64,000 nt of DNA from Stigmatella aurantiaca DW4/3-1 (GTDB taxonomy: Bacteria; Myxococcota; Myxococcia; Myxococcales; Myxococcaceae). The translations under genes were made by a program, and so were the position numbers. Location: contig NC_014623.1 in the NCBI RefSeq assembly GCF_000165485.1, forward strand, positions 7,024,893-7,088,892, given 5' to 3'. Of this stretch, positions 33,532 through 40,014 are shown in pieces (the stretch's first letter is position 1; each line of letters begins with the position of its first letter). Below the pieces are notes generated by a model. It made no database searches. It worked only from the letters and a program-made list of their open reading frames with translations, and had not been told where the DNA came from.

Positions 33532-34620
33532 CTAGCCCCGTGTCCGGACGAATTGGTCCATGAAGGACACCAACGTCCGGACATTGTCCACTGTCACCGC
33601 ATTGTAGAGCGAGACGCGGATGCCCCCCGCGCTGCGGTGCCCCTTGAGCCCCACCATTCCCGCCTTCTTCGACTCCGCCACGAAGGCCTCGTCCAACGCC
33701 TCCGTGGGCAGGTTGAACACCACGTTCATGTACGAGCGGGAGTCCTTCTCCACCGGCGCCCGGTAGAACTCCGGGTGGCGATCGATGGCCGCGTAGAGCA
33801 GGTCGCCCTTCTCCCGGTTCCACTTCTCCAACTGCGTCAGCCCACCCACATCCTGGATCCAGGACAACACGTTGCGGCACAGGTAGATCGCGAAGGTGGG
33901 CGGCGTGTTGTAGAGCGAGTTGTTCTCCGCGTAGGTGGTGTAGCGGAAGACCTTCGGGATGTCCGTGCGCCCCCGGGCCATGAACGCCTTGGACACCACC
34001 ACGATGACGATGCCCGAGGGGCCCACGTTCTTCTGGGCCCCTGCGTAGAGCAGCGTGAACTGGCTCACGTCGATCGGCTTCCACAGCAGGTCCGAGCTCA
34101 TGTCCGCCACCAGCGGCACGCCGCCCACGTCCGGGAAGGCGTGCCACTGCGTCCCGTAGATGGTGTTGTTGCTCGTCATGTGGACGTAGACCGCCCGGGG
34201 GTCCACCTGTATTTCGTCCTCCCGGGGGATCCGCGTGTAGCGCCTGTCCGCATTGAGGGTGGTGGCCGCGATGCGCCGCTTGCCGTAGTACTTCGCCTCA
34301 TCGAAGGCCTTCTCGCTCCACACCCCCGTCATCAGGTAGTCCGCGCTCGTCTCCGGGGTGAGGAAGTTCATCGGAATCTGCGCGAACTGCTGCGACGCAC
34401 CTCCCTGAAGAAAGAGCACCTGGTGGGTGTCCGGAATGCGGAGCAACTTCGTGAGCAGGGAGATGGCCTCCTCGTGGACGGCGTCGTACTCCTTGCCGCG
34501 GTGGCTGTGCTCCATGATGCTCATGCCCGAGCCCTGGAACTCGAGCAGCTCGTCGCGGGCTCGCTCCAACGCAGGCAGGGGCAGACCGGCGGGTCCAGGG
34601 TTGAAGTTGATGACGCGCAT
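33532..34620 (-). CDS. serC: Phosphoserine aminotransferase
   Basis: SerC converts 3-phosphohydroxypyruvate to phosphoserine in serine synthesis and acts in pyridoxal phosphate synthesis. The 362-residue protein starts [19 protein letters not shown] as in the family, with [34 protein letters not shown] and the PLP lysine in [13 protein letters not shown]. It ends [19 protein letters not shown]. Length is normal. It is preceded by a 119-nt gap after the hvfC-like gene, which probably holds its own promoter. Confidence 0.97.
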
Positions 34621-34739
34621 GGCGGTGTCCTCTCGGGAAATGAACGGCGCCACGCATTCTCGCCGAGCCGCCCTCAAGGGCCAGCACGAAGCGTGTGCGG
34701 TGTTCAGCGGCTGGCCGAAAGGAGGCCGGCGCACCTGGC

Positions 34740-35453
34740 TCAAGGGCGGAGGATGAAGCCCTCTCGGACGCATTCCTCCACCGCGCGGTGGATGTCCGCC
34801 TCCGGTACGCCGGTCGCCGCCGCCACCCCTTCGGTGGAGAGCCCCTCCAGCGCCATCTTCACCACCAGCAGCGCCCGGTCATGGGCGGGCATGAACCATG
34901 TGGTCAGCTGCTGGGGATGGCGCCACAGCAGCGCCATTTCCTCGCCCTCCAGCGGAGCGGGGGCCTCGCACTGGCCTCGCACCCAGGCACAGAGGCGAAA
35001 CGGGTGCTGGAGCACCGCGAGCGTCGGATTCACCGTGAGCCGCGCCACCGTGGCAGGGAGCACTTCCTCCGAGGCGTACACCGTCCAATCCGTCCACTCG
35101 AAGCGCGCCAGCGCGGGGATGAACGCCTTCAGCCCGTGGGCCTCGGCCCTGTCCGCCACGAACGCCGGGAACCCCTCCCCCATCCGGTTCATCTCGTAGT
35201 GCCGGGCCGGCCGTTGGGCCTCAAAGGCATCCAGCAGCGCCTCCCAGCGCTCGGGGCCCACACACGCCTGGGTGAACGGAAACAGCTTCGCCACCGTCGT
35301 GCGCACATGGTGGCTCACGAATTCGCCATAGAGCGCCACGCGAGAAGGGGACTCGTCCCACCCTGGGTGCGCCGCGCGCAAGCGCTCCAGCTCGGCAGGA
35401 GCCGCCAGGAAGTCCGCCATCGAGTCGAAGAAGTGCCGCAAGCCCGGTTTCAT
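34740..35453 (-). CDS. DUF2063 (HvfC/BufC-type) partner of MNIO oxidase
   Basis: A 237-residue cytosolic protein of the DUF2063 family, the partner that presents the precursor peptide to the DUF692 enzyme. The N-terminal domain runs [49 protein letters not shown], typical of DUF2063. The C-terminal part ([49 protein letters not shown]) is the second helical domain with a winged-helix-like end. It overlaps the DUF692 gene by 4 nt (ATGA), so the two are made in fixed ratio. Role assignment follows the HvfABC and bufferin systems; peptide binding here is inferred. Confidence 0.88.
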
Positions 35454-36295
35454 CGCGCGGCCTCCCGCAAGTCCTCGCGCGCCCGGTCCGCCTCGTCCAG
35501 CACGGCCTCCAACGAAGGGATGCTCTGATCCCACTCGATGAGCGTGGACACCGGCCCGGTGCGGGCCAGCACGTAGCGGTAGAGCGACCAGACCTCATCG
35601 CACACGGGGCCGCCATGCGTGTCGATGACCACCTCGGGCCGACGCTCGTGCCCGGCAAGGTGGATCTGCACCACGCGCTCCAGCGGCAGCGCGTCCACGA
35701 AAGCCCGCGGCTCGTAGCCGTGGTTCTGCGCGTTCACATAGACGTTGTTCACATCCAGCAGCAGGCCGCAGTCCGCCTCCTCGGCCACGCGCCGCAGGAA
35801 GGTGGCCTCGTCCAGCGTCCCCCCTGGCATCCGCGCGTAGTAGCTCGGGTTTTCCAGCAGGAAGGGGCGCCCCACCCGGTCCATCACCTCGCGGACTCGG
35901 GGGACCACATGCTCCACGGCCTCCTCATGGAAGGGCAGCGGCAGCAGATCGTGCAGGACCACCCCGCCCAGGCGCGAATAGCAAAGGTGGTCCGAGAAGA
36001 ACGGCGCATCCAGCCGCCGCGTCAACGCCGCCAGCCGGGTGACATAGTCCTCATCCAGCGGATCCGGTCCGCCGATGTTCAACCCCACGCCATGGGGAAG
36101 CACCCGCCAGCGCTCCGCACAAGCCTCCAGCGCCCGCTGCGAGCGCCCGCCCAAGGACAGGAAGTTCTCGGGGACGATCTCCACCCAGTCGAGCGTGCGC
36201 TCGGTGCGAGGCAGCGTCTCGTAGAACTCGCGCCGCAGCCCGATCCCCGCCCCGAGAAACGTCAGTCCATGTCTGTGGGCGTAGCTGTCGGACAC
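35450..36295 (-). CDS. DUF692 multinuclear non-heme iron oxidase (MNIO, HvfB/BufB type)
   Basis: A 281-residue TIM-barrel enzyme of the MNIO family, which uses a two- or three-iron centre to rearrange cysteines (or other residues) of a precursor peptide into oxazolone-, thioamide- or thiooxazole-type groups. Metal-ligand regions are intact: SDHLCYSR (His103), LLENPSYYAR (Glu148, Asn149), LLLDVNNVYVNAQNHG (Asp181, His191) and VQIHLAGH (His211, His215), plus VEIVPENFL near residue 40. Start is GTG at 36295 with GAGGAG 6 nt before it. It stands between the EGKCG precursor and the DUF2063 partner, the usual precursor-enzyme-partner order. Confidence 0.92.
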   Translation of the reverse strand: MSDSYAHRHGLTFLGAGIGLRREFYETLPRTERTLDWVEIVPENFLSLGGRSQRALEACAERWRVLPHGVGLNIGGPDPLDEDYVTRLAALTRRLDAPFFSDHLCYSRLGGVVLHDLLPLPFHEEAVEHVVPRVREVMDRVGRPFLLENPSYYARMPGGTLDEATFLRRVAEEADCGLLLDVNNVYVNAQNHGYEPRAFVDALPLERVVQIHLAGHERRPEVVIDTHGGPVCDEVWSLYRYVLARTGPVSTLIEWDQSIPSLEAVLDEADRAREDLREAAR

Positions 36296-36325
36296 CGGTG
36301 GCTCCTCAGGAAGAGAACAACCCAA

Positions 36326-36351
36326 GCGGCGGGAAGCGATCTTCCCACCGC
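36326..36351 (-). terminator. Attenuator-like hairpin between precursor and MNIO gene
   Basis: On the minus strand GCGGTGGGAAG and CTTCCCGCCGC pair with one T-G mismatch-type position around loop ATCG, 22 nt after the precursor stop and 31 nt before the GTG of the DUF692 gene. Only TTGGGTTGTT follows, so it would terminate partially. Such a hairpin would give more precursor than enzyme, as is common in RiPP operons. The regulatory effect is inference. Confidence 0.5.
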
Positions 36352-36373
36352 CTGGATTACCTACGCAGCGGGA

Positions 36374-36646
36374 TTACTTCTTGCCACCACACTTGCCCTC
36401 ACCGCACTTGCCCTCACCACACTTGCCCTCACCGCACTTGCCCTCCTCGCCCTTGGGGGCAGAAGGGGCCGCCGTGGTGTCACCCGCCGCGCCCTGCTCG
36501 GGGTTGGCCGCCTGGCTGCCGGGGGATTGGGTCGACGTATCGGTGGAGGCAGGGGTGGCCTCCGCCGACTTGGAGGACGCACAGCCGGTGGCGAGCGCGG
36601 TGAGCGAGAGGGTGCCAACAACCGCCGCCAGAGCCTTAACGTTCAT
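36374..36646 (-). CDS. EGKCG-repeat precursor peptide (HvfA/bufferin-like), with lipobox
   Basis: A 90-residue precursor, the presumed substrate of the DUF692 enzyme next to it. It has an export signal (MNVKALAAVVGTLSLTALAT, Cys22 after ATG in LATGC), a Ser/Thr/Ala/Pro linker and a core of four tandem EGKCG units at residues 68-87 with cysteines 71, 76, 81 and 86, ending GKK. This core is the hallmark of HvfA-class peptides, whose modified cysteines chelate copper. Unlike a plain signal peptide, the LATGC sequence resembles a lipobox, so the peptide may be lipid-anchored. AAGGAAG lies 5 nt before the ATG. About 45-70 nt upstream a TGAAC and a CGTCTA resemble ECF-sigma elements, but at 13-nt spacing, so this is weak. 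Confidence 0.88.
   Translation of the reverse strand: MNVKALAAVVGTLSLTALATGCASSKSAEATPASTDTSTQSPGSQAANPEQGAAGDTTAAPSAPKGEEGKCGEGKCGEGKCGEGKCGGKK
36386..36445 (-). repeat. Four tandem 15-bp units encoding EGKCG
   Basis: The core of the precursor gene consists of four direct 15-bp units, with starts of ACTTGCCCTC (plus strand) at 36391, 36406, 36421 and 36436. They differ only in wobble bases, alternating TGT and TGC cysteine codons, as if a 30-bp pair had been duplicated. Such repeats can expand or contract by slippage, changing the number of modifiable cysteines. Confidence 0.85.
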
Positions 36647-36725: not shown

Positions 36726-38192
36726 CTACCAGGGACCGCTGGCGCTCCGAGCTTCCAGAGATTCACGCAGCAAGCTGTCCCGGGCAGGCCGCAGCTGGAT
36801 GCCGCCCGGCGTGAGCGTCACCCCCAACGCTTCTAACAAACCCTCCAACCCAGCAAAAGCAGGTTCTCGCAGGCGCCGGGCCCACCACTCCTCGAAAAAA
36901 GGCCTCCCCGCCACGGCATCCACGGCCGCGCCATAGGCCGCTGGCGTGGAGGTGGCGCCGCGTCCGGCCAGAAACGCCAGCACGTCTTCCAGCCCGCGCT
37001 GGTGCTGGGTGGCCCGGCGCAGTTCCACATCGAGCAGCAATGCCAGGTATGCGCCCACCCAGTAGATGCCAGGGGGCGCATCTTCTTCGATCATCTCCTC
37101 CAGCGTCCGCCCCGCTGCCTGCTCCCGCCCCCGCTCGAAGCCCCGGAGCAGCTCCGCCCACGCACGCTCGGGCGGATGCCGCCCCGAACGCGCCCGCGCG
37201 AGCTCCGTGAAGTAAGTGGCCAGTCCCTCGGAGATCCAGGGCGTGCGCGGCACAAAGGCCGGGTGAAGCAGGTGCAACATCTCGTGGAGCGCAGCCCAGT
37301 CCGCCTCCAAGGCCTCTGGGCGCGCCTCCTGCCCCACCAGCAAGGAGATGCTCGGGGGCGTACTCCACATCAGCATTCCGAAGAGGTTGGGCGTGCGGTC
37401 CCCTTCCACCGGGACGACGTGGACGGCCACCCGTGGGTAAGGGAAGGTCCTCCGCACGGTGAGGAGCTGCCCGGCGGTCCGCCCCAGCCAGTCACAGACC
37501 GCCGCGTCCCCCAGGTGGCGCATCGGCGCGAGGATGGCCACGTCCAGCACCGCTCCCGGCAGCCGGGCCTGGCACCGGTGTCCTCCGAAGCTATGAAAGC
37601 CCGAGTCCACCAGATCCGCGGCGGTCAACACATAGTGCCCTTCGGGAGCTGGGACCCAGGGCAGCAGCGCATTCGCCCCTTCTAGCCACAGCTCCACGCG
37701 CCGGGACGGCGATGCCACCCGGGGCCGCAGCAGCCAGCTCTTTCCCGCCAGGTACCGCGCGTCCCCCCGCCCCATTCCGGTGAAGAAGCCGGGTCCCCGC
37801 TCACGGATGATCTCATCCAGGGGGTAGCGATAGCGCAGCGAGTGGGTTCCCCTGGGAAGCCTCACCGAGCCGCCCTGGACAGGCAGTGCGAGCGGCGGCG
37901 CCGCCGGATCCCGGAAGGCCCAGACGGTCTTCACCCCACCGGGCTGGGTGAACAGAAACTCCTGCTCCCCCGGCTGATCCAGCCCCACCTCCACCTCCAG
38001 CGCATGCCCGGGCTCGCGCACATAGGTCACGTGGTAGCGCAGGCTCCGGGAAACCGCCTCTTGCCGAGGAGGTGGAAGCCGAGGGGCCACCGTCCCGCAG
38101 GCGCTCAGGCTCAGGATGATCGCCAGAAGGCTCGAAAGCCGAAGCGGGCGTCTTGGCAGGCGGTGGAGGGGCCCATCCCCTGTCTTTTTCAT
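36726..38192 (-). CDS. Gluzincin-like metallopeptidase lipoprotein
   Basis: A 488-residue lipoprotein (LSSLLAIILSLSAC, then GTVAPRLPPP). The N-terminal half is a beta domain (RYHVTYVREPGHALEVEV, RGTHSLRYRYPLDE) and the second half has the zinc motif HEMLH in AALHEMLHLLHPAF followed 20-odd residues later by WISEGLATYFTELA, the Glu expected as third ligand in gluzincins (M1/M61 clan). Arrangement resembles M61 glycyl aminopeptidases. It is located upstream of the EGKCG precursor on the same strand with a 79-nt gap, so co-regulation is possible but not shown. Substrate unknown. Confidence 0.82.
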   Translation of the reverse strand: MKKTGDGPLHRLPRRPLRLSSLLAIILSLSACGTVAPRLPPPRQEAVSRSLRYHVTYVREPGHALEVEVGLDQPGEQEFLFTQPGGVKTVWAFRDPAAPPLALPVQGGSVRLPRGTHSLRYRYPLDEIIRERGPGFFTGMGRGDARYLAGKSWLLRPRVASPSRRVELWLEGANALLPWVPAPEGHYVLTAADLVDSGFHSFGGHRCQARLPGAVLDVAILAPMRHLGDAAVCDWLGRTAGQLLTVRRTFPYPRVAVHVVPVEGDRTPNLFGMLMWSTPPSISLLVGQEARPEALEADWAALHEMLHLLHPAFVPRTPWISEGLATYFTELARARSGRHPPERAWAELLRGFERGREQAAGRTLEEMIEEDAPPGIYWVGAYLALLLDVELRRATQHQRGLEDVLAFLAGRGATSTPAAYGAAVDAVAGRPFFEEWWARRLREPAFAGLEGLLEALGVTLTPGGIQLRPARDSLLRESLEARSASGPW

Positions 38193-38370: not shown

Positions 38371-38397
38371 TTGCAAATCGGTAAATCGCCTTGCAAA
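38371..38397. promoter_or_regulatory. Two TTGCAAA boxes, putative ScfR/RamB operator
   Basis: TTGCAAA occurs at 38371-38377 and again at 38391-38397, start-to-start 20 bp, about two helical turns, 55-80 nt before the ScfR-like start. On the other strand the second box reads ACTTTTGCAAGG, similar to the RamB target with core ACTTTGCAAA known in corynebacteria. Autoregulation is therefore plausible. This is a motif comparison by eye. Confidence 0.45.
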
Positions 38398-38451
38398 AGT
38401 GTTTTTAAGGCAGGAGGCCCCAGTCCGGGCGACCTCTGTGTGGAACCGGGA

Positions 38452-40014
38452 ATGAATGAGAACGCACTCAACGCGAACGTGGGCCTGAAGCTGCGGGGCC
38501 TGCGGCTCGCGCGCAACATCAAGCAAACGGATGCGGCGAAGGATCTGGGGGTCTCCCCGGCGTACCTGAACCTCATCGAGAAGGGCAAACGGGTCATGCC
38601 CTTCCCACTGCTGTGGAAGGCGCTGCGCTACTTCGATCAAGATCCCGAGCAGTTCATGTCCACGCTGGGCGAAGGGCGCGTGGACGAGGCCCTGGCGAAG
38701 CTCCTGGACGAGCCGCTCCTCAAGAGCCTGGACATCGATTCCGAGTCCCTCCAGAGCCTGTCGGCGGAGCCGAAGCTCGCGGGCACCGTGGCCGCCCTCT
38801 TCAACCTCTACAAGAACACGCGCACGCAGTTGGAGAACGTGCTGACGCAGCTGTCCGCCGAGGAGCGCACCCGCGCCCAGACCGGCCAGAGCGGCGGCAC
38901 CGGGCCCGGGCTGCGCTTCGACTACTCGCCGTTCGACGAGGTGAGCGACTTCCTGGAGTCCCACCGCAACTACTTCCCCGAGTTGGAGGAGCAGGCGGAG
39001 GCGATGCGCCGGGACTTCCAGCTGGAGCGGCTGCTTACCAGCGCCCAGCTCATCCGCCTGCTGGAAGAGCGCTTTGGCTTCCGGGTGCGGTTCGAGCATG
39101 CCCCCAGCGGCTCGTCCGTGGTGCGCCGGTTGGACCTGGAGGAGCAGACGCTCACGCTCTCGCCGGACCTCACCGAGCAGCCCTTGAAGTTCCAGGTGGC
39201 CACCTCCCTGGGCCTGCTGCTCATGGACCGGGAGAAGCTGGTGGAGCGCATCGTCGGCCATGGCCGCACCCGCCACGCGGAGACGCTGCGCCTCATCAAG
39301 GTGAACCTCTCCAACTACTTTGCCGGCGCGCTCATGCTCCCCTACGGGGACTTCTTCAAGGAAGTGGAGCGCACGCGCTACGACGTGGAGCTGCTGTCGA
39401 ACATCTTCGGCAGCACCTACGAGACGGTGGCCCACCGCTTCTGCAACCTCTCGGACCCGAAGCGCACCGGCATTCCCTTCCACTTCCTGCGCGCGGACAT
39501 CGCCGGCAACATCTCCAAGCGCTACAGCGGCACCGGGCTGAAGTTCGCCACGGGCGGCGGCTCGTGCGGCAAGTGGGCCGTGCACCTGGCCTTCCTCAAC
39601 CCCGGCCAGCTCACCCGGCAGTACTCGATGATGCCGGATGGGGCCACCTACTTCTGCTTCGCCAAGGTGCAGCTCCAGCCCATCGAGGGCTCCATCGTGA
39701 AGGGCACCGCCTACTCCATCGGCCTGGGCACCCACGCGGAGAACGCCAAGTACCTGGCCTATGGCCTGCCCACCAATGATCTGCGCAAGGACGCGGTGGC
39801 CAGCGGCATCACCTGCCGCTTCTGCGAGCGGACCGATTGCAACCAGCGCTCGGCGGCCAGCTATCGCTTCGCCTTCGCTTTTGACGAATACACCAAGAAG
39901 GACTGCTTCTTTTCGCCCCTGCTCGTGCATGAGGGCGGCAAGGGCGAGCGCGGGGAACGCCACGACGCTATGGACAAGGCGCTCCGGCGCCGCAACAAAG
40001 ACGGGGAGGGCTGA
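38452..40014 (+). CDS. XRE-family short-chain acyl-CoA-type regulator (ScfR/RamB-like)
   Basis: A 520-residue transcription factor. The N-terminal XRE helix-turn-helix (LKLRGLRLARNIKQTDAAKD, VSPAYLNLIEKGKRVMP) is followed by a linker, an ImmA/IrrE-like domain in the middle (TSLGLLLMDREKLVERIV, FAGALMLPYGDFF; no HExxH seen) and a C-terminal DUF2083-type part with Cys residues in GGGSCGKWAVHL and CRFCERTDCNQRS. This layout is that of RamB/PrpC-regulator-like proteins controlling acetate, propionate or glyoxylate metabolism in response to acyl-CoA or a related ligand. No such metabolic genes are adjacent. Paired TTGCAAA boxes lie upstream. ATG 38452 (MNENALNANVG) is chosen since the HTH follows directly. 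Confidence 0.88.
   Translation: MNENALNANVGLKLRGLRLARNIKQTDAAKDLGVSPAYLNLIEKGKRVMPFPLLWKALRYFDQDPEQFMSTLGEGRVDEALAKLLDEPLLKSLDIDSESLQSLSAEPKLAGTVAALFNLYKNTRTQLENVLTQLSAEERTRAQTGQSGGTGPGLRFDYSPFDEVSDFLESHRNYFPELEEQAEAMRRDFQLERLLTSAQLIRLLEERFGFRVRFEHAPSGSSVVRRLDLEEQTLTLSPDLTEQPLKFQVATSLGLLLMDREKLVERIVGHGRTRHAETLRLIKVNLSNYFAGALMLPYGDFFKEVERTRYDVELLSNIFGSTYETVAHRFCNLSDPKRTGIPFHFLRADIAGNISKRYSGTGLKFATGGGSCGKWAVHLAFLNPGQLTRQYSMMPDGATYFCFAKVQLQPIEGSIVKGTAYSIGLGTHAENAKYLAYGLPTNDLRKDAVASGITCRFCERTDCNQRSAASYRFAFAFDEYTKKDCFFSPLLVHEGGKGERGERHDAMDKALRRRNKDGEG

Follow-up and report, generated by a model that had tools for sequence, protein, structure and literature searches.

Peptides modified by MNIO (DUF692) oxidases form several described families of ribosomally synthesized and post-translationally modified peptides (RiPPs). 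In the HvfABC or Buf_EGKCG-oxazolin family, DUF692 and DUF2063 genes form an operon with a precursor bearing a signal peptide and EGKCG repeats (PMC12452194, PMC13419390); the HvfB product has been reassigned to 5-thiooxazole (PMC13419390), and DoxX occurs in the family in various combinations and is not obligatory (PMC12452194). Among the BufABC systems, approximately 16% of Buf2 precursors are predicted lipoproteins (PMC12452194), and NedA of Neisseria dentiae is a tri-acylated, MNIO-modified EGKCG peptide, with −12 Da for three EGKCG motifs (PMC12636315, a 2025 preprint). Here we analyze an operon of the myxobacterium Stigmatella aurantiaca DW4/3-1 that encodes a RiPP precursor with four EGKCG motifs, an MNIO and a DUF2063 partner, located in a 64,000-nucleotide stretch of NC_014623.1 (the window). 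The three genes lie on the minus strand, where the initial annotation had placed them (Table 1). The operon probably belongs to a myxobacterial family of MNIO-modified RiPP lipoproteins, whose precursors would undergo cysteine oxidation in the cytoplasm, export, lipidation at Cys22 and metal binding in the envelope.

The operon shares with NedABC a signal peptidase II (SPII) signal, an EGKCG core and an MNIO with its partner, and its product is likewise predicted to be an acylated, cysteine-oxidized lipopeptide (PMC12636315). The two differ in that NedA is described as an oxazolin, whereas the MNIO here lies outside the EGKCG clade (in a tree without NedB), and in that EGKCG is here a lineage variant, the lipobox being present in every family member that was read. 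With HvfABC/Buf_EGKCG-oxazolin it has in common the two-enzyme operon, the signal peptide and the EGKCG repeats, but it has no 17-residue repeats, L..GY segment or DoxX (PMC12452194, PMC13419390), its MNIO belongs to another clade and its precursor has a lipobox. BufABC systems (Buf1 and Buf2) resemble it in that its MNIO passes the BufB cut-off, in the DUF2063/RRE partner and, in relatives of the window operon, in a sigma-F-like promoter shared with MsrP; unlike theirs, the precursor is neither DUF2282 nor BufA2 and bears a lipobox, and DoxX is lacking. The RiPP lipoprotein DybA/chryseobasin also combines an MNIO-modified peptide with an SPII signal, but has a ChrH-type MNIO, macrocycle chemistry and a CPACGMG core of its own (PMC12636315). 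The sigma-F regulon of Caulobacter crescentus unites a GTAACC-N16 promoter, DUF692-DUF2063 operons and YedY/MsrP (PMC3511200); its precursors are DUF2282 proteins and its −10 element is CGAA, whereas in myxobacteria MsrA, MsrB and YceI join the set, and a GTAACC-type promoter is missing from the window operon.

A conserved lipobox in Myxococcaceae precursors

Orthologs of the MNIO (75 to 100% identity) were found in 63 of the 96 genomes of the host's family, and six second copies bring the number of loci to 69. Loci and genomes carry our own L and G numbers; nine loci (L076–L084) repeat places among L005–L025, and lipobox and motif counts take each place once, other counts being by distinct sequence (66 and 67 precursors). 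The window precursor, MNVKALAAVVGTLSLTALATGC-ASSKSAEA...PKG-E-(EGKCG)4-GKK, is laid out as a signal peptide with the lipobox LATGC (Cys22), a variable linker and the core (EGKCG)4GKK; its C-terminal end is APKG-E-(EGKCG)4-GKK, and the core repeat is a 15-bp tandem unit of 4.1 copies (36385–36445). The signal end LTALATGC, followed by ASS, fits the PROSITE lipoprotein rule as applied by eye. The initial annotation had also read this end as a lipobox and had set conservation of Cys22 as a test beforehand; Gly21-Cys22 is invariant, with residue 22 the first cysteine of the precursor, at all 69 loci (63 primary and six second copies).

The signal peptide through Cys22 is the best-conserved stretch of the precursor, and the linker and core drift. 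Mean pairwise identity, taken over 400 random pairs from 67 distinct precursors, is 0.83 for residues 1 to 22 versus 0.47 from residue 30 on, and the positions invariant among the 67 are M1, K4, G11, S14, L15, L18, A19, G21 and C22. All 66 distinct precursors have Ala or Val directly after the cysteine (+2), and at none of the 69 loci is this residue Lys or Asp. In Myxococcus xanthus, Ala at +7 is found in 7 of 10 matrix lipoproteins and Lys at +2 in 8 of 12 inner-membrane ones, and sorting of FibA to the matrix needs the +7 Ala (PMC3222651). Among the primary precursors 56 of 63 have Ala at +7, versus 1 of 19 background lipoprotein-like genes of the S. aurantiaca genome, these 19 being found among 467 genes called in 800 kb by a home-made gene caller. 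Ala at −3 of the lipobox occurs in 5 of the same 19 and is not unusual in lipoprotein-like genes of this organism.

Ten MNIO loci outside the family have 54 to 58% identity to it. Nine of them (L073, L085–L087, L089, L221, L222, L238 and L239) have type I signal ends with no cysteine there (for example MNKKLLGAVLG...APAFAED); at the tenth, L088, the precursor is of another, longer kind and does bear a lipobox. The lipidated/non-lipidated label changes five times on the MNIO tree, with lipoboxes also in L213, L223, L225, L228 and L240, and therefore lipoboxes were gained or lost several times. The precursor is very probably a lipoprotein; because ALA-TG, three residues ahead of Cys22, is a possible type I site, we infer lipidation, albeit strongly.

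The MNIO and its DUF2063 partner

The MNIO scored 345.2 bits with PF05114 (cut-off 25) and 319.3 bits with the BufB model NF050167 (cut-off 310), and fell below the cut-off of the NCBIfam HvfB model (283.5 versus 360 bits). It has the residues that align with the conserved 3bww motifs HG, SDH, EN, DVNN, H-x-AGH and DTH, which serve as iron ligands in the family. To judge from the DTH motif, D242 and H244 of HvfB (PMC13419390) would correspond to D225 and H227 here. MNIO identity is 94% to the ortholog of G036 and 85 to 90% to those of the other five congeners.

The partner gene is present at all 63 primary loci and the six second copies. The window protein scored 48.4 bits with PF09836 (cut-off 27.2) and 50.2 bits with the NCBIfam HvfC model, below its cut-off of 142. 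An AlphaFold2 model built on a 27-row alignment had a mean predicted local distance difference test score (pLDDT) of 84.6, and Foldseek matched it to NGO1945 (3dee; E 7.2e-6) and to TglI of the TglHI holoenzyme (8hci; E 2.2e-5), whereas TbiB1 in complex with leader peptides was matched weakly (E 0.7). As modeled, the protein fits a DUF2063 plus RRE-type partner.

Origin of the EGKCG core

EGKCG occurs in 6 of the 63 primary orthologs, and in tandem in four (L004, which is the window locus, L005, L007 and L009). The close relative L006 has the core EGTCG-EGQCG-EGQCG, the commonest core words of the family are EGSCG and AGSCG, and relatives have EGSCG or EHKCG cores. The initial annotation had rested the substrate role on the presence of the EGKCG core in homologs; that role stands despite the rarity of the motif because further cysteines after Cys22, from two to six, are kept in all 66 distinct precursors. 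Its placing of the operon is supported as to an MNIO-DUF2063 RiPP operon but not as to the HvfABC/EGKCG type, according to the tree, the protein models and the count of 6 in 63.

The four EGKCG copies are the repeated-EGKCG feature of HvfABC/Buf_EGKCG-oxazolin; set against the definition in PMC12452194, the window core has a pure five-residue (15-bp) period and no EF-hand match. The KCGExKCG domain model NF050137 was passed by a narrow margin (19.7 versus 19.5 bits), and NF050188 gave 16.2 bits against a cut-off of 95, a Microbulbifer EGKCG precursor reaching just 39.6. The BufA1 (DUF2282) and BufA2 models matched neither the window precursor nor three orthologs, and the type I relative L073 matched BufA2 weakly (18.6 bits, cut-off 60). 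A scan of genome contigs for KCGEGKCG yielded at least 119 loci with 121 open reading frames (ORFs), 112 of them with an N-terminus. Among the matches listed, 6 of these 112 had a lipobox by pattern (5 in a subset of 80 loci and 81 ORFs): five from Bacteroidota or Campylobacteraceae with no MNIO on the fetched stretch, and the doubtful L176, which stands beside an MNIO. Of the 70 EGKCG precursors beside an MNIO among those matches, 61 have an L..GY-like segment after the signal, versus 0 of 66 distinct myxobacterial precursors.

We constructed a phylogenetic tree of 94 MNIO rows. The lipobox family was represented by 21 of its 69 loci and the EGKCG type by 25 rows (24 from the at least 119 loci, plus L253); L075 was dropped as short. 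The 21 lipobox rows form one clade (100/99), confined to Myxococcaceae, and the 25 EGKCG rows another (100/95), with an open fork where a sister group of the lipobox family would join. When three EGKCG rows of the window type were forced into the EGKCG clade, the cost was 140 log units (approximately unbiased [AU] test, p 1e-8), and joining the whole lipobox family with that clade cost 31 (p 0.007), the tested groups having been named after the tree was seen; a quick tree minus ten long or odd rows gave the same split. L253, an EGKCG-EF-hand operon of G034, a genome that also has a lipobox operon, groups with Stenotrophomonas/Pseudomonadota. HvfABC membership is rejected on the tree, the AU test and the NCBIfam models. 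Because the MNIO lies outside the EGKCG clade and the motif occurs in so few orthologs, the EGKCG repeat would have arisen separately, most simply as an independent product of an EGSCG-type core.

Promoter motif, YceI and a putative regulon

An extracytoplasmic function (ECF)-type motif, GTAAC-N15-18-CGTA, stands at the operon start at 44 of the 63 loci, versus about 0.09 expected from base-shuffled 300-base stretches. At 24 loci a YceI gene, assigned through a 73.3-bit PF04264 match of one example and through a four-seed profile, stands ahead of the precursor; 23 of these loci have the motif, and the sequence of the other, L031, ends before the expected site. The motif is present at 21 of the 39 loci without YceI. 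Among the matches listed, YceI was beside none of the 77 EGKCG loci with MNIO, and it lies on the MNIO strand at five other Myxococcota MNIO loci (L223, L228, L250, L257 and L258). The window operon and its closest relatives (L005–L007) have neither the motif nor a YceI neighbor.

In the S. aurantiaca genome GTAACCN{16,17}GCGTA gave no sites; with the spacing later read from the loci, GTAACN{15,16}GCGTA gave five. Four of these lie 3 to 43 bases before the predicted starts of YceI, MsrB (SelR), MsrA (PMSR) and MsrP (Oxidored_molyb), and the fifth before a glycosyl hydrolase-like frame. This YceI gene with its ECF-type promoter (G000:C1:1658436-1659133; L301, L328) is 5.4 Mb from the operon; in 24 of 63 relatives its ortholog is the first gene of the lipo-RiPP operon. 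The narrow form GTAACCN{14,15}GCGTA was sought in eight relatives and found at 25 sites, four of which are lipo-RiPP operon promoters, before the precursor (L304, L308) or before the operon YceI (L307, L309). Other sites precede an unlinked YceI (L318), MsrAB, MsrB, MsrP, DsbD-N (two) and DUF1223, and two precede a P460-like lipoprotein (below the Pfam cut-off). In the 12.3-Mb genome G034 the lipo-RiPP promoter is the sole narrow-form site.

By its form the operon promoter appears to be of the sigma-F type, and its sigma factor would be of that kind. NrsF matches were found in all six genomes searched, above the Pfam cut-off in four, and in two Pfam confirmed an ECF sigma gene next to NrsF (L332, L336); none of these NrsF-like genes could be linked to the motif. 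In G034 and G033 a type I MNIO operon (L238, L239, L332) has ECF sigma and NrsF genes directly beside it and GTAACC-N16-CGTC upstream. CorE as the regulator is neither assigned nor excluded because just AAC at −35 and G in the −10 region are given for its promoter (PMC3107203).

Neighboring genes and further MNIO loci

Table 1. Coordinates of the lipo-RiPP operon and adjoining genes in the window
Feature	Position	Strand	Basis or remark
RiPP precursor, 90 aa	36374..36646 (including stop)	−	ORF and translation; orthologs in 63 genomes
Signal peptide through Cys22; predicted SPII cleavage before Cys22	36581..36646	−	Ortholog alignment
Core, four EGKCG motifs	36386..36445	−	Sequence, tandem repeat
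MNIO (DUF692) peptide oxidase, bufferin-maturase-like, GTG start	35450..36295	−	PF05114, NF050167, 3bww alignment, tree
DUF2063 and RRE-like partner protein	34740..35453	−	PF09836, AlphaFold2 model, Foldseek
M61-like (HEMLH) lipoprotein gene, upstream of precursor	36726..38192	−	Start codon chosen by the analyst
serC, downstream housekeeping neighbor outside the system	33532..34623	−	TIGR01364, 469.3 bits (cut-off 443.6)
Helix-turn-helix (HTH)/IrrE/ScfRs-type regulator gene	38371..40014	+	Divergent from the M61-like gene

The MNIO stop and DUF2063 start overlap by four bases (ATGA), 78 bases separate precursor and MNIO, and 79 separate the M61-like gene and precursor. As the initial annotation had said, a DoxX companion is absent: of six DoxX matches in the genome, even the nearest lies over 200 kb from the operon. 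The gluzincin-like gene that it had noted upstream is real and has the HEMLH motif, with an M61 match (PF05299, 14.3 bits) under the Pfam cut-off of 22. This gene is syntenic at 57 of the 63 primary loci and missing at all six second copies and at four g7 primary loci (L062–L064, L068), and as a candidate part of the system it was rejected; because of its absence at the second copies, it probably has no role there. The HTH/IrrE/ScfRs-type gene is upstream in several relatives as well.

A second MNIO of the S. aurantiaca genome (L074; G000:C1:5215934-5216725) lies in a frame of 646 aa that has an additional region at the C-terminus. At its start is a 38-aa Cys-rich frame, MLDCGPAYSFTDAGSVCISCACGSGCLCGCVSTTSKTA, kept in another genome (also L242), a possible signal-less RiPP precursor. 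G034 carries no fewer than five MNIO operons, which fall into four types: two lipobox copies, a type I GSEKSC operon, the EGKCG-EF-hand operon and a Buf2-cytochrome operon. At L088 and L090 (G011:C28, G093:C17) the presumed precursor bears a lipobox, CPAGCPAADAGCPAGCP and, at its C-terminus, CxxCH. Cytochrome_P460 gave a weak match to one of the pair (22.9 bits, below the cut-off of 27), and the precursors may be RiPP-cytochrome lipoprotein fusions. At L241 (G034:C1:11207961-11213740) the presumed precursor, of 242 aa, is a fusion: besides a lipobox-like signal and a Cys segment resembling that of Buf2, it contains a cytochrome c-like domain (Cytochrome_CBB3, 28.9 bits, cut-off 27). L213, on the Thiothrix subterranea plasmid NZ_CP133216.1, has a Buf2-like precursor with the lipobox LILAGCTG before the MNIO, and a gene annotated as a DNA-binding domain-containing protein is also found behind this precursor. 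At L224 (G182:C2) a lipobox-like precursor consists of a GDGDGD linker and DAGCPSCG repeats.

Proposed mechanism and alternatives

We propose that the DUF2063/RRE partner may read the conserved signal peptide and aid the MNIO. A preliminary remark on an MNIO-partner complex holds that recognition may depend in part on the signal peptide (PMC12452194), which would explain its being the most conserved stretch of the precursor. While the precursor is still in the cytoplasm, the MNIO would oxidize the cysteines of its C-terminal Cys-Gly pairs, with 5-thiooxazoles as the likeliest product, and Sec would export the precursor after modification. Cys22 would escape the MNIO, be diacylglyceryl-modified after export, in the manner shown for NedA (PMC12636315), and then be exposed by signal peptidase II cleavage, and the mature peptide would be held in the outer membrane or extracellular matrix. 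Its modified cysteines would bind copper, by kinship with the characterized MNIO cysteine products, which are described as copper-binding (PMC12452194), and perhaps oxidants. In most relatives an ECF sigma-F-type promoter would be common to the operon and to periplasmic methionine-sulfoxide repair genes, a shared form that suggests a role partly in guarding envelope proteins against oxidation; in the lineage of the window, promoter and YceI gene would have become separated from the operon.

Other readings concern where the peptide resides and where the operon came from. It is unlikely that the product is an ordinary periplasmic bufferin or oxazolin, cut by signal peptidase I between ALA and TGC and soluble, with Cys22 a plain substrate or binding cysteine. 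The A-x-A site three residues before Cys22 and the 106 of 112 EGKCG ORFs without a lipobox by pattern, among the matches listed, would suit such a product; it is countered by Gly21-Cys22 (69 of 69) and by Ala or Val at +2 (66 of 66), kept while linker and core vary, and by the clean, cysteine-free type I ends at nine of the ten nearest outside MNIO loci. Highly improbable is the acquisition of a true HvfABC/EGKCG operon from Pseudomonadota with a lipobox added later. Four exact EGKCG motifs and the barely passed KCGExKCG model speak for it, but the MNIO sits inside a Myxococcaceae-only clade and is kept from the EGKCG clade by the AU test (p 1e-8), the L..GY-like segment common in listed EGKCG precursors occurs in no myxobacterial one, relatives have EGSCG or EHKCG cores, and it is the EGKCG-EF-hand operon of G034 (L253) that sides with Pseudomonadota.

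As to function, the main role may not be copper: a lipid-anchored sink for oxidant or sulfur stress, acting with MsrA/B/P and YceI and binding metal secondarily, is conceivable, if doubtful. Sites of the same ECF-type form before the lipo-RiPP operon, MsrA, MsrB, MsrP, YceI, DsbD-N and DUF1223 point that way, as does a related ECF16 system of Brucella, whose response to hypochlorous acid includes a methionine-rich peptide and MsrPQ (PMC8315932). Against it stand the copper binding of characterized MNIO cysteine products (PMC12452194) and the response of Caulobacter sigma-F to heavy metals (PMC3511200); the two roles are compatible, not exclusive. That the operon is degenerating in this lineage, with the promoter and YceI link lost and expression weak or nil, is improbable. 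It would account for the missing motif in the window operon and L005–L007 and for a promoter-bearing YceI 5.4 Mb away, but each of the three genes has an open frame, the MNIO shares 94% identity with that of G036 and 85 to 90% with those of the five remaining congeners, the array of core repeats has grown instead of eroding, and 15 further loci lack the motif yet have open MNIO frames.

Several points weigh against the MNIO-modified lipoprotein and its regulon as proposed here. The ALA-TG site would admit signal peptidase I, and Cys22 could be conserved partly because the partner reads the signal peptide, not because the residue is lipidated. Owing to the kinship of the 69 loci, counts over them are not independent, and the 19 genes behind the +7 Ala comparison are a small background; the six second copies lack this Ala, and their products may for that reason go elsewhere. 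The ECF motif was defined after the alignment was seen and is absent from 19 of the 63 loci, including the window operon and L005–L007. In the S. aurantiaca genome its five sites are fewer than the 19 of the reversed control, and the narrow form has one site versus seven. The 25 narrow-form sites of the eight relatives fall in six genomes, two having none, and 12 are tied to no related gene; the NrsF match of the S. aurantiaca genome, at 24.6 bits, is below the Pfam cut-off of 26.8. In the literature searched there is no experiment on any member of the myxobacterial lipobox family.

A more far-reaching form of the proposal is tentative. The peptide may be a permanent MNIO lipopeptide of the cell surface (outer membrane or matrix, in line with +7 Ala), a sink for copper and oxidants within a sigma-F-type regulon with methionine-sulfoxide repair and YceI, and its EGKCG core in Stigmatella-type strains may have evolved from an EGSCG-type core independently of the oxazolins of Haemophilus and Pseudomonadota. 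Outer-membrane lipoproteins are exchanged between myxobacterial cells (PMC3325183), and because kin cells exchange them the chelator could be a public good shared among cells.

Tethering, which the initial annotation had offered as a variant of the system, is not new in itself because lipid-anchored EGKCG RiPPs had already been predicted and one of them, NedA, shown (PMC12636315), and the MNIO chemistry and the anchoring principle were known beforehand. What appears to be new is the Myxococcaceae lipo-RiPP family, the separate origin of its EGKCG and the regulon link to envelope-protein repair genes. The main text of PMC12452194 contains neither myxo- or Myxococc- nor YceI; PMC12636315 names Myxococcota for ChrH-type clusters, and its supplementary lists could hold members of the myxobacterial lipobox family. 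Among the matches listed, the literature on DUF692, MNIO, bufferins and DUF2063 does not mention YceI, and that on DUF692 and copper in Myxococcus or Stigmatella has nothing on this family.

The EGKCG motif by itself does not show that a precursor belongs to the HvfA family, a point of consequence for motif-based annotation. Bufferin-type RiPPs have been tied to copper, and their place in wider envelope stress is a question that this family could address. A fixed lipobox, a drifting core and a promoter form shared with MsrA, MsrB, MsrP and YceI make it possible to ask whether such peptides serve against copper, against oxidized methionine and thiols, or against both, and the question is approachable in genetically tractable Myxococcus strains.

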